Positions 14,301 to 24,292 of a DNA stretch of 27,961 nucleotides are shown piece after piece (position 1 is the stretch's first letter; every line of letters starts with the position of its first letter). A model generated the notes under the pieces. It saw only the letters and a list, made by a program, of their open reading frames with translations. It was not told the DNA's origin and searched no databases. The stretch is from a virus: positions 1 through 27,961 of IMG/VR virus record IMGVR_UViG_3300025120_000411; one strand, written 5' to 3'. A program made the translations under genes and the position numbers.

Positions 14301-14335
14301 AATAAGAGGCCACTAGACCTCTTATTTTTATTATA
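14301..14335 (-). terminator. Terminator hairpin abutting a -10-like TATAAT
   Basis: Minus strand AATAAGAGG-(8)-CCTCTTATT (14326-14301), 9-bp perfect arms, then ATTCTTTTG, a moderate U-tract. It would end the synthetase/tRNA transcript. TATAAT lies just before it (14335-14330), 3 nt from the 5' arm, repeating the layout at 7941-7995, but no convincing -35 is present, so the promoter part is weak. Confidence 0.6.
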
Positions 14336-14377: not shown

Positions 14378-14462
14378 TGGCTGTGGAGGATGGAGTCGAA
14401 CCATCACGCCTTTCGGCACACGAGAAACAATCGTGCGTGTCTACCAGTTTCACCACCCCACA
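14378..14462 (-). tRNA. Unusual class II tRNA, anticodon GUU
   Basis: 85 nt including encoded CCA. Acceptor TGTGGGG pairs with CTCCACA (one G-U); D-stem GTG/CAC with loop AAACTGGTAGA; anticodon stem CACGA/TCGTG, loop TTGTTTC, so the anticodon is GUU (Asn codons) and base 37 is U; 13-nt variable region with GCC-GAAA-GGC hairpin; T-arm GATGG-TTCGACT-CCATC; discriminator G73. The long variable arm and D-loop are those of tRNA-Leu, while U1-A72, G73 and GUU are the features of tRNA-Asn. Position 37 is normally a purine. All stems pair, so this is not an obvious pseudogene. It starts 5 nt after the AsnRS-like gene. Confidence 0.88.
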
Positions 14463-14467
14463 ATAAA

Positions 14468-15310
14468 TTATGCTGCGAGAGGCATCTGAGTATCTAGCGC
14501 CGCTATCATACGAGTCATACCAATACCACCCCCTACACGAGGGAAGAAGTCAAACTTTAAAAATTCCTCAAGTTCTGCCTCTACGCGGTCTTTACCAAAT
14601 AAGTCAAATAACAGGTTTGCATACGCTCCATCGGTAATTGTGTGGAAAGTATCACGCATTTGATCTACGTTCGTAGAACGTTCAGCTGAACCGATTGTTT
14701 CCATACCACCTAAAATAACATCTATCTTACGACTTGTGCCATCGGCATTACGAGCCATGTTCCAAAACGGGCTAGTCATTTCAGGAAAATCTGTGATCAT
14801 AGTGCTACCAAATATTTCTTTCATCATTAGCTCTTCACCAGCCTCCATTTCGGTATCTGCGCTTAATCCAAAGTGCTTCTGCCATTCAGCATAAGACCGT
14901 ACTACAACATCACCAAAACCTCCGAAGCCTAAATACTCACAAAGCTCATAGTTCATATCTTTGAGATCATTAATGTCGCCTGGCATTTCAAATTCAAACA
15001 TTGGAAAGATGATATCATGCCTACCTGGAATTGCGTTTGGTTCTTGTCTGTAAGAAGTTGAGACACAAAAAAAGCCCTTTGAATCAGGCTGGGAAAGTAA
15101 TTCATGTTCTAACCACATCTGACCTGTTTGTGGAAGAGGCCAAACTTGATCTGCGTAGTTGTAGGTTGCTACATTAAAAGGGTCTTCACATGCAGCGAGT
15201 ATGCTTAGTCTATTTTGGGTATGGACTTCGAGAAATCCTTTGTCTAAAAAAAATGACCTTAAAAGGCCAACTGTATCTGTAAATTTCTGAGGGGATATTA
15301 ATTGAGTCAT
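14468..15310 (-). CDS. Stand-alone AsnRS/AspRS-type class II catalytic domain
   Basis: 280 aa from ATG 15310 (SD AAAGG; a GTG at 15340 lies in the leader U-tract). Class IIb synthetase core: motif 1 region GFLEVHTQ (25-31, the usual TP is TQ), LPQTGQMWLEHELL (59-72, the amino-acid pocket SGQLYLE of AsnRS), motif 2 YRQEPN...GRHDIIFPMFEFE (Arg88, Glu90), TDFPEMTSPFW (173-183, compare TDYPKEIKPFY of AsnRS), and motif 3 GGGIGMTRMIAAL (Arg267). There is no N-terminal anticodon-binding OB domain. Such fragments include archaeal AsnRS-related asparagine synthetase and AsnA; either asparagine synthesis or charging of the adjacent tRNA is possible. All three ATP-binding motifs appear usable. Its operon partner is the GUU tRNA 5 nt downstream. 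Confidence 0.85.
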   Translation of the reverse strand: MTQLISPQKFTDTVGLLRSFFLDKGFLEVHTQNRLSILAACEDPFNVATYNYADQVWPLPQTGQMWLEHELLSQPDSKGFFCVSTSYRQEPNAIPGRHDIIFPMFEFEMPGDINDLKDMNYELCEYLGFGGFGDVVVRSYAEWQKHFGLSADTEMEAGEELMMKEIFGSTMITDFPEMTSPFWNMARNADGTSRKIDVILGGMETIGSAERSTNVDQMRDTFHTITDGAYANLLFDLFGKDRVEAELEEFLKFDFFPRVGGGIGMTRMIAALDTQMPLAA

Positions 15311-15330
15311 TAAAAAACCTTTCTTTATAT

Positions 15331-15360
15331 AAAAAGACACGCAGATTTAAAACCTGCGTT
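15331..15360 (-). promoter_or_regulatory. Leader hairpin plus U-tract (possible attenuator)
   Basis: Minus strand ACGCAG...CTGCGT (15359-15339) can extend to nine pairs around a 3-nt loop, followed by GTCTTTTT. It lies between the promoter 15372-15400 (expected start near 15365) and the SD of the AsnRS-like gene, so the full hairpin is in the leader RNA. It could be an attenuator or simply end read-through from the genes upstream. No leader peptide frame is visible. Confidence 0.65.
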
Positions 15361-15371
15361 CAAATTAACCA

Positions 15372-15400
15372 ATTATATAAGATGTATAACCAAAGGGCAA
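15372..15400 (-). promoter_or_regulatory. Promoter TTGCCC-17-TATAAT for synthetase-tRNA unit
   Basis: Minus strand TTGCCC (15400-15395), 17 nt, TATAAT (15377-15372). Perfect -10 and optimal spacing. It gives the AsnRS-like gene and the tRNA their own transcription start, separate from the long metabolic run that ends at 15428. Confidence 0.75.
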
Positions 15401-16490: not shown

Positions 16491-17570
16491 TTAGTTTCCT
16501 GGTACTGTAGCGTCAATGCCTTCAACATAATACATCATTGTATTAAGATGTGCATCGTCAGCTACTTCGCCGTCTTTAAGTTGAAGTTTACCAGTGTTGT
16601 CTTTGATAGGGCCGGTAAATGCAAAGTATTTACCATCAGAGATTGCTTGTTTAATCTCAGCAGCTTTCATCTTTACATTATCAGGCATATTAGTAAAGGG
16701 TGCCATTTGTACAGCTCCTTCATCCATATCACCAAAGTAGTTTTCTTTTTGCCAAGCACCAGCGATAACTTGTCCAACCTTCTTTACGTAGTAAGGTCCC
16801 CAGTTATCAATAGTTGCTGTAAGCTGTGCTTTAGGAGCAAATTTATACTGATCACTTGCTTGTCCAAATCCTAACTTACCTTGACTCTGTGCAGCTTGTA
16901 GGGGTGCGGGACTGTCAGTATGCTGTGCAACCATATCACAACCTTCTGCCATCATAACGTTAGCAGCATCTGCTTCTTTACTAGGGTTATACCAAGTATT
17001 TGCCCACACAATGTCGATATCAACATTCGGGTTCATCTTCTTAGCACCCATGTAGTAGGTATTGATTTCCCTAATAACTTCTGGAATAGGGTAGGCAGCT
17101 ACATAGCAAATTTTATTAGTTTTAGTCATCATACCAGCAATAATGCCCTGCACGTGTCGTGCTTGATATAGCCGCAAACCATATGAGCTCATGTTATCTG
17201 CTTGCTTATACCCTGTTGCATGTTCAAAATATACATTAGGGAACTCTTTAGCAACTTTTAACATTGGCTCCATATATCCAAACGAAGTAGCAAAGACGAT
17301 ATCATTAGTTTCTGCTAGCATACGAATTACGCGTTCTGCGTCCGGGCCGTACTTTACGCTTTCGACGTAAGATGTTTTTACTTTATCACCAAAAGCTTCT
17401 TCTACTTGTTGACGACCAATATCATGACGATAAGTCCATCCATGATCTCCAATGGGCCCGACATATACAAAACCTACTTTTACGGGGTCGGCTGCAAAAG
17501 CAAGTGAGGACATAAGTCCAAGAAACATACTGATAACAACAGTATGAAATAGTTTTTCAAAATAACGCAT
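16491..17570 (-). CDS. BMP/PnrA-family ABC transporter substrate-binding protein
   Basis: 359 aa periplasmic protein. Signal peptide about 1-26 ending SSLAFA before ADPVKV, with no lipobox, so a soluble SPase I product. Family motifs: KVGFVYVGPIGDHGWTYRHD (30-49), VFATSFGYMEPMLKVAKEFP, VYFEHATGY, GIIAGMMTK, WYNPSKEADAANVMMAEGCD and TIDNWGPYY. PF02608 members bind purine nucleosides or related compounds and deliver them to an ABC transporter. No permease or ATPase is present here, so it must use the host's. SD AAAGGAAATAAA. A phage-encoded scavenging protein for nucleobases would feed DNA synthesis; ligand identity is inferred from the family only. Confidence 0.92.
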   Translation of the reverse strand: MRYFEKLFHTVVISMFLGLMSSLAFAADPVKVGFVYVGPIGDHGWTYRHDIGRQQVEEAFGDKVKTSYVESVKYGPDAERVIRMLAETNDIVFATSFGYMEPMLKVAKEFPNVYFEHATGYKQADNMSSYGLRLYQARHVQGIIAGMMTKTNKICYVAAYPIPEVIREINTYYMGAKKMNPNVDIDIVWANTWYNPSKEADAANVMMAEGCDMVAQHTDSPAPLQAAQSQGKLGFGQASDQYKFAPKAQLTATIDNWGPYYVKKVGQVIAGAWQKENYFGDMDEGAVQMAPFTNMPDNVKMKAAEIKQAISDGKYFAFTGPIKDNTGKLQLKDGEVADDAHLNTMMYYVEGIDATVPGN

Positions 17571-18924: not shown

Positions 18925-19152
18925 TTAATCAGTCTTTCTGATATCATAAATACGTTGCTCTTCGGGGCTAGTTGAATATATTTGAGGTATTGAGCAGTTT
19001 TCTTTAGGATTAACAACCCAGTTTAACTCTTGAATTAGTCTCGTATACCACATTTTGTCATGTTCGTCACTAGCTTTTTCTCTATCTTCTTTAAGTTGCT
19101 TTACTCTGACTGCTACATAGTCATGTGTTGTAGCGGCCAAGCCACGTCTCAT
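18925..19152 (-). CDS. Conserved small phage protein
   Basis: 75 aa, helical, MRRGLAATTHDYVAVRVKQL then REKASDEHDKMWYTRLIQEL NWV. The DKMWYxRLIQELNW block is one I recall from small marine-myovirus proteins. ATGA overlap with the oxygenase stop. No motif pointing to an enzymatic role. Confidence 0.65.
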   Translation of the reverse strand: MRRGLAATTHDYVAVRVKQLKEDREKASDEHDKMWYTRLIQELNWVVNPKENCSIPQIYSTSPEEQRIYDIRKTD

Positions 19153-20237
19153 GCTGCTACCTTGTTATTTTCAAGAATAGTTAAAGGATTCATCGGACTC
19201 ACGCCCAGCATATTACCCCATGCTTCGTAATAATGTCTCATGCCAACTTCATCATGAATTGTAGAGTTTTCATGACGACCGTGTAGAATGTTTCTCGATT
19301 CGGTACCTTCTCTCATTGTAGTGCCTTGACCAGCAACACCGATAAGATCTTCATGCAGATTACGACCAAACGGTCCCCAAATAGAATTGTGGTGTTTGAT
19401 TCTTGTTTGTCTTTCTTCTGGTGTATCACACTTAAGTCCGTATCCACGAAACTCAATCAACACTTTGTTTGGTCCAAGTGGTGTCACTGAATCTGACCTA
19501 TAGGCACTACCACGCAGGTTAAAGTTAAAGCCAGGGAACAGGTCAACCATGTACCATTGGTTTGGTGGGAGATTAGGAAAACTAAGATCGCCTCTATCCT
19601 CAAACCCATCGTATTCTTCGTAGTTGACTGTAAAAGAGCTGACATTGACATGCCCATTTTCAAAAGGAATATTTTTTCTAGCAAAATATTCATCATTAAA
19701 TCCACTCACTCTATTGAAGTAATGCATAAAGTCGTGATAAAACTCGGAATTGGTATCGTGCCATAACTTATAGTTGGTTTCAATCACTGCTTTGTGATAG
19801 TGAAACACTTCCATCTCTTCTGTGTCAATAGCATCAGCAATACAATCAAACGCACCTGCTGTCCACTCGTCTACAGACTGTGTAGGATTAGAGTCGAGTG
19901 TAACCCACACCATGCCACCATGATAAACTTCGCAATGAAGTTCTTTACCAACGGTTTCGTTGCTAGTCATATTACCTGCTACGCTATGAATGTTTTCTCC
20001 GAGATATGCTTTCACGACGTTGCCTGTGTTCCAAGCAACCACACGTTGTCCTGCAATCTGAGTTGTGCGGAAATCTCCTGCATTGTACATCTCAGAAATA
20101 TGGCACATAGGTACCCACACTTTTGAAAAGATATCTTCTTGTTCACGTAAGTAAATTTCGTGGTTATTGTAGCATTCGCTACTAATGTATTCAACTTTAG
20201 GTGTTTTAGTCCAGTTACTATGATTACGTGGTGGCAT
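19149..20237 (-). CDS. Ring-hydroxylating oxygenase alpha-like, Rieske domain missing
   Basis: 362 aa from ATG 20237 (SD GGGAGACTCAC; an upstream ATG at 20300 lies inside aprB without SD). The N-terminus IYLREQEDIFSKVWVPMCHI and AGDFRTTQIAGQRVV aligns with RHO alpha subunits, but where the Rieske CxH...CxxH should follow there are only about 22 residues (78-100) with no such motif before VYHGGMVWVTLD (104-115). The catalytic domain keeps NYKLWHDTN...FYHDFMH (His168, His172; spacing x3 instead of the usual x4) and HEDLIG (Asp297), a plausible mononuclear-iron triad. Electrons must come from a separate protein; the AprB-type Fe-S protein encoded just before it (14-nt overlap) is the obvious candidate. 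Substrate unknown. Confidence 0.75.
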   Translation of the reverse strand: MPPRNHSNWTKTPKVEYISSECYNNHEIYLREQEDIFSKVWVPMCHISEMYNAGDFRTTQIAGQRVVAWNTGNVVKAYLGENIHSVAGNMTSNETVGKELHCEVYHGGMVWVTLDSNPTQSVDEWTAGAFDCIADAIDTEEMEVFHYHKAVIETNYKLWHDTNSEFYHDFMHYFNRVSGFNDEYFARKNIPFENGHVNVSSFTVNYEEYDGFEDRGDLSFPNLPPNQWYMVDLFPGFNFNLRGSAYRSDSVTPLGPNKVLIEFRGYGLKCDTPEERQTRIKHHNSIWGPFGRNLHEDLIGVAGQGTTMREGTESRNILHGRHENSTIHDEVGMRHYYEAWGNMLGVSPMNPLTILENNKVAA

Positions 20238-20712
20238 GTGAGTCTCCCGTATATTTGTATTTAACAAACTTGTTTCTAGTGATGGTGCGAAGTCCTCCAT
20301 CTGCTAATAAATATTCTGGTTCGTGTGCTAATTGTTGTGTATCTTTTAGTCCTTGTTCTGGCTTGTCGTATTCGCTTGCACACTTAATACTGCCCCAAGG
20401 TGTTGTGCGGATAGGACTTTCAAAATGCTTTTCTCTACCATCCCTAAATTTAAGTCGCCAACTAATAACGCCTTTTTCTGGTTCTCGTAATACTCTAACC
20501 TTGTGGTTCATGGGAGCAAAATCAGAGTACCCACGATCATCAATCGCATTTTGTGGGCATGCTTTTATACAACTGTAGCACTCCCAACAAAAGTTTGGTT
20601 CTATGTTTACTGCTCGTCTAGTAACAGGGTCAATATGCATGATATCACTTGGACAAATATCAACGCAATAACCGCAGCCGTCACAGGCGGTCATGTATAC
20701 AAATGTAGGCAT
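20224..20712 (-). CDS. aprB: Adenylylsulfate reductase beta subunit AprB
   Basis: 162 aa, family-typical length. Two [4Fe-4S] motifs: C10-x2-C13-x2-C16-x3-C20 and C42-x2-C45-x2-C48-x3-C52, with the AprB-specific CWECYSCIKACPQNAID and Trp43, the residue that in Archaeoglobus AprB (Trp48) lies between the FAD of AprA and the cluster. The tail RGYSDFAPMNHKVRVLRE, KFRDGREKHF and IRTTPWGSI is diagnostic of AprB rather than a generic ferredoxin. AprA is not in this window. In the host, AprAB interconverts APS and sulfite plus AMP. Here AprB could boost host AprA or serve the oxygenase encoded next to it. SD AAAGGATAGTTA. Confidence 0.93.
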   Translation of the reverse strand: MPTFVYMTACDGCGYCVDICPSDIMHIDPVTRRAVNIEPNFCWECYSCIKACPQNAIDDRGYSDFAPMNHKVRVLREPEKGVISWRLKFRDGREKHFESPIRTTPWGSIKCASEYDKPEQGLKDTQQLAHEPEYLLADGGLRTITRNKFVKYKYTGDSHATT

Positions 20713-22313: not shown

Positions 22314-22995
22314 ATTGTAGTCTCCTATTTTTTAGTAGAGGTAAAAACGGTACAGCGTCTTGTTCAAATATAATAGGATCTGCACCATCAATGGTCATAA
22401 CAATCGCTATATTTCTTATTCCTGTTCCGTACATCTCATTATGTGCTACAGCATAAGCACAGCCTTGAATATAGTAATCTGTAATTTGTTTAGTAGATTT
22501 CTTCTTCTTTGATGTTTTAAAGTCAATAATAGTAGGCTTGTCTTTCCAAATACCTACCATATCACAACGCCCAGCATAGGAATATTTATTTGACCATAAT
22601 ACTTGTTCTTGTCCCCAGACCTCTTCAATACCTCGCTCTGTAGCTCTAATTAAATCACGACTCATCTGTCTTACGTCTAGTCTCTCCTGAGATAATTCTT
22701 GCCATACGTCTTCCCCGTTGAAATGCTTTTCTGCATATTCGTGAACTAAAGTGCCTCGATCTGTAGCTTCTTTGGAAACCCGTCGAGCTTCTTCTTCCCC
22801 TACTCTCTCTATCCATTTTTGTAACCAAGTGTTATCTGAAGTTTTACCCAATATAGTAGTAATTGACGGATATGATCCGTCAGGTGTATGATAAGTACGT
22901 CCCGTGGGTAGTGTATCAGTATCTACCTCAGTCGTGTAGTCGTACTTCCCTTTTAAAATCGTCCACGGTGTTGACAATAGGTTTTCCTTTCGCAT
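22291..22995 (-). CDS. PD-(D/E)XK nuclease (RecB/Cas4-type)
   Basis: 234 aa at most. Catalytic blocks of the RecB-like exonuclease domain: RGTLVHEYAEK (His85), YAGRCDMVG (Asp145), TIIDFKTSKKK (Asp158, Lys160) and YYIQGCAYA (Gln177, Tyr181). No cysteine cluster like that of Cas4 is present, so a plain phage exonuclease is likelier, for recombination or DNA processing. The start is uncertain: ATG 22995 has no SD, whereas TTG at 22977 has AAAGGA at good distance; either leaves the domain whole. Overlaps the carbamoyltransferase by 68 nt (50 nt with the TTG). Confidence 0.88.
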   Translation of the reverse strand: MRKENLLSTPWTILKGKYDYTTEVDTDTLPTGRTYHTPDGSYPSITTILGKTSDNTWLQKWIERVGEEEARRVSKEATDRGTLVHEYAEKHFNGEDVWQELSQERLDVRQMSRDLIRATERGIEEVWGQEQVLWSNKYSYAGRCDMVGIWKDKPTIIDFKTSKKKKSTKQITDYYIQGCAYAVAHNEMYGTGIRNIAIVMTIDGADPIIFEQDAVPFLPLLKNRRLQYDKLANQ

Positions 22996-24292
22996 TCAAG
23001 CTAGTATTAATTAAAATGGGATACCCATATTGTCTAGTTTTTTCTAATACTTTCCAAAGATACGCATTAGAAGAGCCAGTAACAGTTTGAAGACGGGCAG
23101 TATTATCATGAGTTTTAAAGTTACCTTCAATAATATCAGCAACAAATAACATTTCTTTAGAATGTTGATAAACTTTAAAGTAGTTATCAGCTTCTTCAAT
23201 CTGACAGACAGGCGCATAAGGTCTCCAAGAATCAGTATCTCTCATTTTTATACGATTTAATTTTTTAATGTTATCATCAGTAGGAGCACATAGCAAAGAC
23301 CTATTTCCAAGAGCTCGTGGTCCGAATTCTGCGCGTCCTTGTATGACAGGAACAATCTCACCTTTAATAATTAAATCAGCACATTCATCAGCTGTAATAT
23401 CATTATTTGCAGACACTCCTAAGTACGCGTTTTCCCATAGTGGACGAGTAATTAAAGCAGCAGCTCCTAGCGCACACCCAGCATCACCTGCGGCGGGTTG
23501 AATAGCAACGTGCTTAAAGCCTGAATGTTTTAACAGATAGGTATTAGCAACACAATTTAGGGCAACACCTCCAGCATATGCTAGATTAGTTAATCCTGTT
23601 TCTTTTTGGAGCCATGTTGTAAGAGAGAGTAGTATGTTTTGAGTAACTTGTTGTACAGAAGCCGCAATATCCCAGTCTAGAGTACCAGTGCCTACTCCGC
23701 GTTCTAAGTTATGTAAAAAAGTATAGTCACCGTCTGCATTATAGTCTACAACTTTTTGATTAATCCAAGATGCCCATTTAGGTTTTCCATGAGCAGCAGC
23801 ACTCATCACTTTACACTCATCGCTTAGAGGTACAAATCCCAACAAACGAGTAGCACTAGAATAAAATAAACCAATAGAGTTTGGATAACGAAATCTTTTA
23901 ATCCATTCGATTTGACCATTTCTATATACTCCTAAAGAGGTTGAATAACGATTGCCTACCGTATCTACGACCATTATAGCACAATCAGTCCAGTCAGTGG
24001 TTAAAATAGAACTCATAGCATGAGCTTCGTGATGATCTACTAATACAGGGCGTGCAGATGTAAGTTTTTTAATATCTGATTTAAATTGATTATAGGTAGT
24101 TTCTTCATAAAAAGCAGCAAATTCCCAATCATCATACTGATTTCTTAACCAACGAATAGTATTTTCTGGAAAAGATTTATCAAACTTTTTTCGGGTAAAA
24201 CGCTCTTCGTGAGAAGCACCTTCAATAAATCCGTTATTTAAAGATGCGGCTGCACTATCGTGATGATAAGAGCTCACTCCTAAAATCTTCAT
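22928..24292 (-). CDS. NodU/CmcH-family carbamoyltransferase
   Basis: 454 aa O-carbamoyltransferase. N-terminal kinase-like domain: MKILGVSSYHHDSAAA with HHD, EERFTRKKFDKSFP, DHHEAHAMSS, VVDTVGNR; then YAGGVALNCVANTYLL and IQPAAGDAGCALGAA; C-terminal domain: GRAEFGPRALGNRSLL, SWRPYAPVC, LINTSLNAKGKPIVNT. It transfers carbamoyl from carbamoyl phosphate to a hydroxyl. Family members act on antibiotics and Nod factors; phage relatives can carbamoylate hydroxymethyl-cytosine in DNA. The total length is shorter than TobZ (about 570 aa) but both domains are intact. Partner 2OG oxygenase overlaps it by 38 nt. SD AAAAGG. Target (DNA base or surface glycan) is undecided. Confidence 0.92.
   Translation of the reverse strand: MKILGVSSYHHDSAAASLNNGFIEGASHEERFTRKKFDKSFPENTIRWLRNQYDDWEFAAFYEETTYNQFKSDIKKLTSARPVLVDHHEAHAMSSILTTDWTDCAIMVVDTVGNRYSTSLGVYRNGQIEWIKRFRYPNSIGLFYSSATRLLGFVPLSDECKVMSAAAHGKPKWASWINQKVVDYNADGDYTFLHNLERGVGTGTLDWDIAASVQQVTQNILLSLTTWLQKETGLTNLAYAGGVALNCVANTYLLKHSGFKHVAIQPAAGDAGCALGAAALITRPLWENAYLGVSANNDITADECADLIIKGEIVPVIQGRAEFGPRALGNRSLLCAPTDDNIKKLNRIKMRDTDSWRPYAPVCQIEEADNYFKVYQHSKEMLFVADIIEGNFKTHDNTARLQTVTGSSNAYLWKVLEKTRQYGYPILINTSLNAKGKPIVNTVDDFKREVRLHD

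Follow-up and report, generated by a model that had tools for sequence, protein, structure and literature searches.

The IMG/VR viral record analyzed here (27,961 bases in all, hereafter the window) raises the question of why a phage would place a protein resembling the catalytic core of AsnRS directly before a tRNA with the anticodon GUU. The initial annotation of the locus regarded the two as an orthogonal synthetase/tRNA pair owned by the phage. We propose instead, with a probability of roughly 60%, that the protein is a dihydroorotate-forming enzyme that bypasses CarAB, PyrB and PyrC, and that the co-transcribed Asn tRNA serves this enzyme or offsets the resulting drain on asparagine. The enzyme would thus probably build the pyrimidine ring by a shortcut rather than simply charge a tRNA.

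The locus and its surroundings

The stop codon of the enzyme gene is separated from the start of the tRNA by 5 nt (Table 1). An alternative in-frame start for the enzyme, a GTG at 15340, is possible. Judged from the sequence, the promoter candidate, the leader hairpin and the terminator-like hairpin after the tRNA fit a single enzyme-tRNA transcription unit. The leader hairpin could be an attenuator of this unit. The initial annotation had also postulated one promoter, one leader and one unit; of these elements, the promoter is a consensus match only, and about 4 sites scoring 10/12 are expected by chance in the window.

Table 1. Features of the enzyme-tRNA locus, in window coordinates.
Feature	Position	Strand	Basis or remark
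AsnRS-like catalytic core ORF, 280 aa	14468..15310	minus	ATG at 15310, stop ending 14468
Class II tRNA, anticodon GUU, U1-A72, G73, U37, encoded CCA, 85 nt	14378..14462	minus	ARAGORN, Rfam
Sigma-70-like promoter candidate, TTGCCC-17-TATAAT	15372..15400	minus	Consensus match only, 10/12
Terminator- or attenuator-like hairpin and T-run in the leader, after the promoter candidate and ahead of the start codon	15339..15359	minus	
Strong bidirectional terminator-like hairpin downstream of tRNA	14301..14326	minus	
Motif 2 Arg88 codon	15047..15049	minus	Presumed ATP binding, from established class II knowledge
Motif 3 Arg267 codon	14510..14512	minus	Presumed ATP binding, from established class II knowledge
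Invariant Ala40-Cys41-Glu42 codons	15185..15193	minus	Alignment; putative role

The gene content of the window is phage-like, e.g., UV endonuclease, Fpg, 2OG-Fe(II) oxygenases, a Bmp/PnrA-type binding protein and a carbamoyltransferase. Immediately downstream of the enzyme-tRNA unit lies a gene for a short Na+/Pi cotransporter-like protein (PF02690; 13800-14294). The Bmp/PnrA-type protein (16491-17570), which has a signal peptide and possibly functions in nucleoside scavenging, adjoins a 2OG-Fe(II) oxygenase near the enzyme. An adenylylsulfate reductase beta-subunit-like ferredoxin (PF12139, 87 bits; 20224-20712) overlaps a ring-hydroxylating oxygenase gene (19149-20300). The carbamoyltransferase (22928-24292) is a carbamoyl-phosphate user of the NodU/CmcH type; Table 3 of PMC3037559 lists carbamoyltransferases in the cyanophages P-SSM2 and P-SSM7 too.

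An AsnRS-derived catalytic core

The enzyme matches the Pfam class II D/K/N synthetase core (PF00152, 59 bits) and belongs to PHROG 29758, a PHROG without assigned function. Its AlphaFold2 model (pLDDT 92, pTM 0.90) is a single catalytic domain, and on this model the 280 amino acids leave no room for an anticodon-binding domain, including the N-terminal OB-fold of AsnRS. When a profile of the enzyme family was compared with solved structures, AsnRS was the top match (2xgt, E 2e-12), and the fold closest to the model is that of Pyrococcus horikoshii AsnRS with Asn-AMP (1x54, TM 0.76). Identity to AsnRS is about 18-19%, and the score with the curated asnS model is 24.9 bits, against a cut-off of 342.6.

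The ATP- and substrate-pocket residues are invariant among 39 family members. They include Arg88 of motif 2 and Arg267 of motif 3 (39/39 each), which, from established knowledge of class II enzymes, we take to be ATP-binding positions. One pocket motif reads QTGQMWLE in the family, VSGQLNGE in AsnRS and QSPQLFKQ in AspRS; a second reads MFEFE, MLEPE and QIDVE, respectively. The pocket is of the AsnRS type (TGQ..LE and E-x-E) and not of the AspRS type (SPQ..KQ and D-x-E), since both motifs match the AsnRS pattern, and these motifs would favor Asn over Asp as the substrate. In an alignment by eye, Glu42 falls on the glutamate with which class IIb enzymes hold the alpha-amine of their substrate, and we expect it to play the same part here. 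Beside it is Cys41, invariant in 39/39; by eye, E. coli AsnRS has no equivalent of this residue or of Cys82, which is also invariant. The initial description of a 280-aa AsnRS-type core that lacks an anticodon-binding domain, has motifs 2 and 3 and the pocket intact and lies 5 nt ahead of a GUU tRNA is therefore borne out.

The initial annotation also offered a competing explanation, in which the enzyme is an asparagine synthetase of the archaeal AsnRS-related type with an accidental tRNA neighbor; we consider the AsnA type together with it. By eye, the spacing of motif 2, the GGGIGx(S/T)R form of motif 3 and the Cys-Glu pair do resemble E. coli AsnA, and a solved archaeal enzyme, 3p8t, is matched at E=0.002. 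However, NCBIfam models (PRK06462) give 17.1 and 13.0 bits against cut-offs of 389 and 322, and hhalign assigns a probability of 2.5% to AsnA versus 59% to AsnRS. Linkage to pyrD, pyrE and pyrF and the exclusion of PyrB, both described below, would also go unexplained, and we regard an asparagine synthetase as very improbable.

The tRNA accompanies the enzyme in marine phages

A scan of viral sequences found at least 600 relatives of the enzyme, of which the best 80 were taken forward along with the window and the cyanophages P-SSM2, P-SSM5 and P-SSM7. In this set, a tRNA lies downstream of the enzyme in 81 of the 82 loci that have enough downstream sequence, at a distance of 4-64 nt and, in all but one case, within 10-odd nt. 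The only testable marine-phage locus without it is L063. This recurrence rules out a chance neighbor and supports the tie between enzyme and tRNA in phages that the initial annotation had supposed.

On the protein tree, presence of the tRNA requires three changes: one for the main clade of marine phages, one for a distinct clade of L100 and L160, and a loss. The enzyme gene and the tRNA overlap at the gene's end in L100, and in L160 the tRNA lies 210 nt downstream and its acceptor end is incompletely paired. No tRNA was found near the enzyme in giant-phage relatives and two marine-phage-like contigs; IMG/VR scans with giant-phage proteins gave 2 relatives in one case and none in the other. In P-SSM2 (L082, AY939844.2), the tRNA-Asn is annotated in the deposited record at 164094-164179, which is about 2 kb off; its true position is right after the 'tRNA ligase' gene.

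Some phages carry further candidate pyrimidine genes at the locus. The order is DHO_dh-like, enzyme, tRNA in L088, these being consecutive; DHO_dh-like, enzyme, tRNA, OPRT-like (PRT) in L060; and enzyme, tRNA, DHO_dh-like in L100. An OPRT-like gene is near the enzyme in 12 of the 80 best-matching loci (of at least 600). Among 29 phage records searched whole, 1 has a DHO_dh-like gene and 6 an OPRT-like gene, and queries of the L060 type for both genes had no cyanophage match among named phage records. In most phages there is just the enzyme and the tRNA; these would be enough with PyrD, PyrE and PyrF coming from the host.

Asparagine identity elements and an unusual anticodon loop

ARAGORN identifies the tRNA as tRNA-Asn(GUU) with a class II variable arm, and the Rfam tRNA model scores this segment at 43 bits (E 1e-7); an Rfam search of the whole window at the gathering threshold missed it. 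Among the phage tRNAs, the anticodon GUU, U1-A72 and G73 are present in 49/49 distinct sequences. The helices are kept by covariation, because 18 of the 23 pairs are changed on both sides (0/500 shuffles); 99.8% of cells in the alignment are paired. Phage variable arms extend to about 30 nt and contain a recurrent ACTGCAATATATTT-type stretch (in L020, L031, L045 and others). Because of this length, ARAGORN misses many of these tRNAs or gives them false anticodons (ATC, CTC, ATT).

At position 37, 34 of the 49 distinct tRNAs have U, 4 have C and 11 have A, so that 38/49 carry a pyrimidine there; U33 is kept in 46 and replaced in 3. The tRNA in the window has U33, but U37. The controls were the other tRNAs encoded at these phage loci (59 distinct sequences), all of which have both U33 and a purine at position 37 (59/59 each). 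The difference at position 37 is pronounced (Fisher p about 1e-19, nominal since the rows are related), and that at position 33 is not significant. Compared with an elongator tRNA-Asn, these tRNAs thus have GUU, U1-A72 and G73, mostly lack the combination of a purine (A) at 37 with U33, and do not have the class I body; the body is class II and nearest to tRNA-Leu.

Bacterial AsnRS reads the anticodon and G73. The phage tRNA retains what AsnRS reads, yet has lost a feature of decoding, purine-37, and this pattern in the sequences hints at a non-ribosomal role. As the enzyme lacks an anticodon-binding domain, we take it that either the host AsnRS or the ribosome keeps GUU invariant; with purine-37 lost, the ribosome is the less likely of the two to be the main constraint.

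It is important to consider that the tRNA might nevertheless be an ordinary decoding tRNA-Asn. This explanation has the same dihydroorotate-forming enzyme as the reading we prefer and differs only in the role of the tRNA, which would either offset the asparagine drain or stand in for tRNA-Asn that host anticodon nucleases have cut, its altered loop conferring resistance. The retention of the anticodon in an altered loop suits this idea, and phage tRNAs targeted by anticodon nucleases do bear loop mutations, for which resistance has been proposed (PMC10264068). However, it does not explain why a single Leu-like class II tRNA is locked to a single gene in two separate phage clades, and no other tRNA in these loci has such loop changes. 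We therefore entertain a decoding role tentatively, as a possibility of some weight that we do not favor.

Cellular relatives lie among pyrimidine genes

Scanning bacterial and archaeal assemblies yielded 129 relatives of the enzyme. The closest cellular ones, 52-62% identical to the window enzyme, are from Patescibacteria, Bacteroidota, Rickettsiales and Pasteurella atlantica. No tRNA was found near the enzyme in any of roughly 70 cellular loci; the tRNA-bearing loci among the assembly matches (L087-L089, L100 and L160) appear to be phage DNA within MAGs. A dedicated tRNA hidden elsewhere in the host genomes was considered and discarded, as a covariance model gave only ordinary tRNAs among those of its matches that were inspected with ARAGORN. 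Outside marine phages, relatives of the enzyme are therefore usually without the tRNA, an outcome that the initial annotation had named as evidence against its synthetase/tRNA pair.

Homologs of UMP synthase, PyrE or PyrF lie within about 6 kb of the enzyme in 22 of 77 loci. DHODH is nearby in 12 of the 77, and a shorter DHO_dh-like family in 5 more. In three Pasteurellaceae, pyrD faces enzyme-pyrF-pyrE, P. atlantica having pyrD and then enzyme-pyrF-pyrE. The order in Ca. Bandiella is enzyme-pyrF-pyrE-DHO_dh-prs-transketolase (transketolase was named by eye). Many loci in Patescibacteria have the order dus-enzyme-dnaX in place of pyr genes (among them L093, L096, L101, L104, L106, L116, L120, L125, L135 and L145). 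In this phylum, dus, which encodes tRNA-dihydrouridine synthase, is a neighbor from the DHODH superfamily where DHODH itself is often missing. The short DHO_dh-like family (about 230-254 aa, weak matches to Pfam DHO_dh; L105, L138, L143, L154, L060, L088 and L100) travels with the enzyme and is common to intracellular Alphaproteobacteria and marine phages.

Most genomes with the enzyme are without PyrB

We then compared the enzyme's distribution with that of the standard pathway. PyrB exceeds its curated cut-off in 2 of 35 enzyme-bearing genomes (G015 and G017) and not in the other 33, CarB in 4 (not in 31) and PyrC in 1 (not in 34), with the caveat that these genomes are mostly MAGs, in which incompleteness can mimic absence and contamination is possible. 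In control genomes, the counts over the cut-offs are 14/14 for PyrB, 14/14 for CarB and 11/14 for PyrC of this type. One of the CarB genes in enzyme-bearing genomes adjoins a carbamoyltransferase match that scores like OTC, so that this CarB probably serves arginine. DHODH is over its cut-off in 23 of the 35 and below it in about a third, mostly Patescibacteria.

Within 150 Chitinophagales genomes, 7 have the enzyme, 124 have PyrB and none has both (PyrB in 0/7 with the enzyme vs 124/143 without; p=2e-6, weakened by relatedness). The Pasteurellaceae are uninformative as a test of this exclusion, because the whole family is without PyrB (0/121). P. atlantica has none of PyrB, PyrC and CarB, so that the enzyme, beside pyrD, pyrF and pyrE, is the one candidate in view for producing dihydroorotate. 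Bacteroidota hosts retain dihydroorotase/dihydropyrimidinase-like proteins that score below the cut-off, and may have a separate dihydroorotase step. Given the exclusion of PyrB and the linkage to pyrD, pyrE and pyrF, the enzyme would replace PyrB as an analog and not as a homolog.

The linkage to pyrE could also be read in another way. HisZ is a class II synthetase paralog partnered with a phosphoribosyltransferase, and on this precedent the enzyme might be a subunit that regulates or assembles orotate phosphoribosyltransferase in cells that import orotate or dihydroorotate. However, the ATP- and substrate-pocket residues are invariant, and large-genome, apparently free-living bacteria without CarB and PyrB would then be auxotrophic. 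Of the explanations considered here, we find this the least credible.

These results also bear on the orthogonal pair, in which the core would charge its own tRNA with Asn via the acceptor end or variable arm, for use in phage translation. An AsnRS-derived core with intact motifs, its tight coupling to a tRNA in marine phages and the invariance of U1-A72 and G73 are what such a pair would have, and to that extent the initial interpretation stands. However, the closest cellular relatives lack the tRNA and lie in pyrimidine operons; this context and the replacement of PyrB are left unexplained by an orthogonal synthetase. It is also odd that GUU is invariant when the enzyme has no anticodon-binding domain, that a decoding tRNA should break the purine-37 rule obeyed by every control tRNA, and that the enzyme occurs with no tRNA nearby in giant phages and on some marine-phage-like contigs. 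We consider such a pair unlikely.

A proposed route to dihydroorotate

We suggest that the family comprises AsnRS-derived, ATP-using enzymes that make (S)-dihydroorotate in place of carbamoyl-phosphate synthetase, aspartate carbamoyltransferase and dihydroorotase. The most likely reaction would convert L-asparagine, CO2/bicarbonate and ATP to dihydroorotate, AMP and PPi. Dihydroorotate can be seen as asparagine plus one carbonyl that bridges its two nitrogens; asparagine would supply N1, C6, C5, C4 and N3 of the ring, so that C2 alone would be missing. In the class II active site, ATP might activate a carbamate of the alpha-amine by adenylation, and the side-chain amide would then close the ring. 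Alternatively, the reaction could start from Asp and an ammonia or urea donor. In this way the phage would divert asparagine into pyrimidines for DNA synthesis, and PyrD, PyrE and PyrF would come from the host or, in some phages, be partly phage-encoded.

The co-transcribed tRNA, with asparagine identity elements on a tRNA-Leu-like body, would probably be charged with Asn by the host AsnRS while its decoding constraint is relaxed, and might serve the enzyme as carrier or substrate or offset the asparagine drain. In the order in which we considered them, its possible roles are compensation or a nuclease-resistant tRNA-Asn, an Asn carrier for the enzyme, and a self-charging pair. A more specific and rather speculative version is that pyrimidine synthesis is itself tRNA-dependent: Asn-tRNA made by AsnRS would be the substrate, the ring would be closed on the tRNA with CO2 and ATP, and dihydroorotate would be released. 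Cells would use ordinary Asn-tRNA, and phages would bring a dedicated, non-decoding Asn carrier.

Several observations count against the dihydroorotate reading as a whole, namely the host genomes without DHODH, the dus-enzyme-dnaX loci, the two genomes with both the enzyme and PyrB, and the scarcity of DHO_dh-like (1/29) and OPRT-like (6/29) genes in whole phage records. If the reading is nevertheless true, it would add a biosynthetic route that extends across many bacterial phyla and, among marine phages, hundreds of contigs, account for UMP synthesis in large-genome Bacteroidota without PyrB, and let phages circumvent a host step that is under regulation. The tRNA also raises the question of whether transfer RNA takes part in the synthesis of nucleotide bases.

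Comparison with known systems

Word searches of the open literature (subscription papers and most preprints being outside their scope) found no paper on the phage enzyme-tRNA pair and none in which an AsnRS-like protein is connected with pyrimidine synthesis. The gene family has been encountered before as the cyanophage T4-GC 194 'tRNA ligase' of P-SSM2 and P-SSM7, which has the same downstream GUU tRNA. Table 3 of PMC3037559 lists it as sporadic, and the passages found there draw no link to the tRNA or to pyrimidines.

AsnRS has the same fold, ATP motifs 2 and 3 and the same type of pocket as the enzyme, which differs in its low identity (about 18%), its lack of an anticodon-binding domain, its score (25 vs 343 bits) and, in cells, its pyrimidine-operon context. 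Like AsnA and archaeal 3p8t, the enzyme would be a stand-alone class IIb core in metabolism, and by eye it has a similar form of motif 3 and a Cys-Glu pair; unlike them, it is pyr-linked, PyrB-exclusive and AsnRS-like in its pocket, and it has no significant similarity to the AsnA profile. The textbook pyrimidine route runs via carbamoyl phosphate and aspartate. CarAB, PyrB and PyrC would have the same product as the enzyme, dihydroorotate delivered to PyrD, whereas there is no homology between the two, and the proposed route would use one AMP-forming enzyme instead of three and no carbamoyl phosphate. Precedents for an aminoacyl-tRNA as a metabolic substrate are tRNA-Glu in tetrapyrrole synthesis and amidation by GatCAB; the proposed use of Asn-tRNA would resemble them in this respect and differ in amino acid, enzyme family and product.
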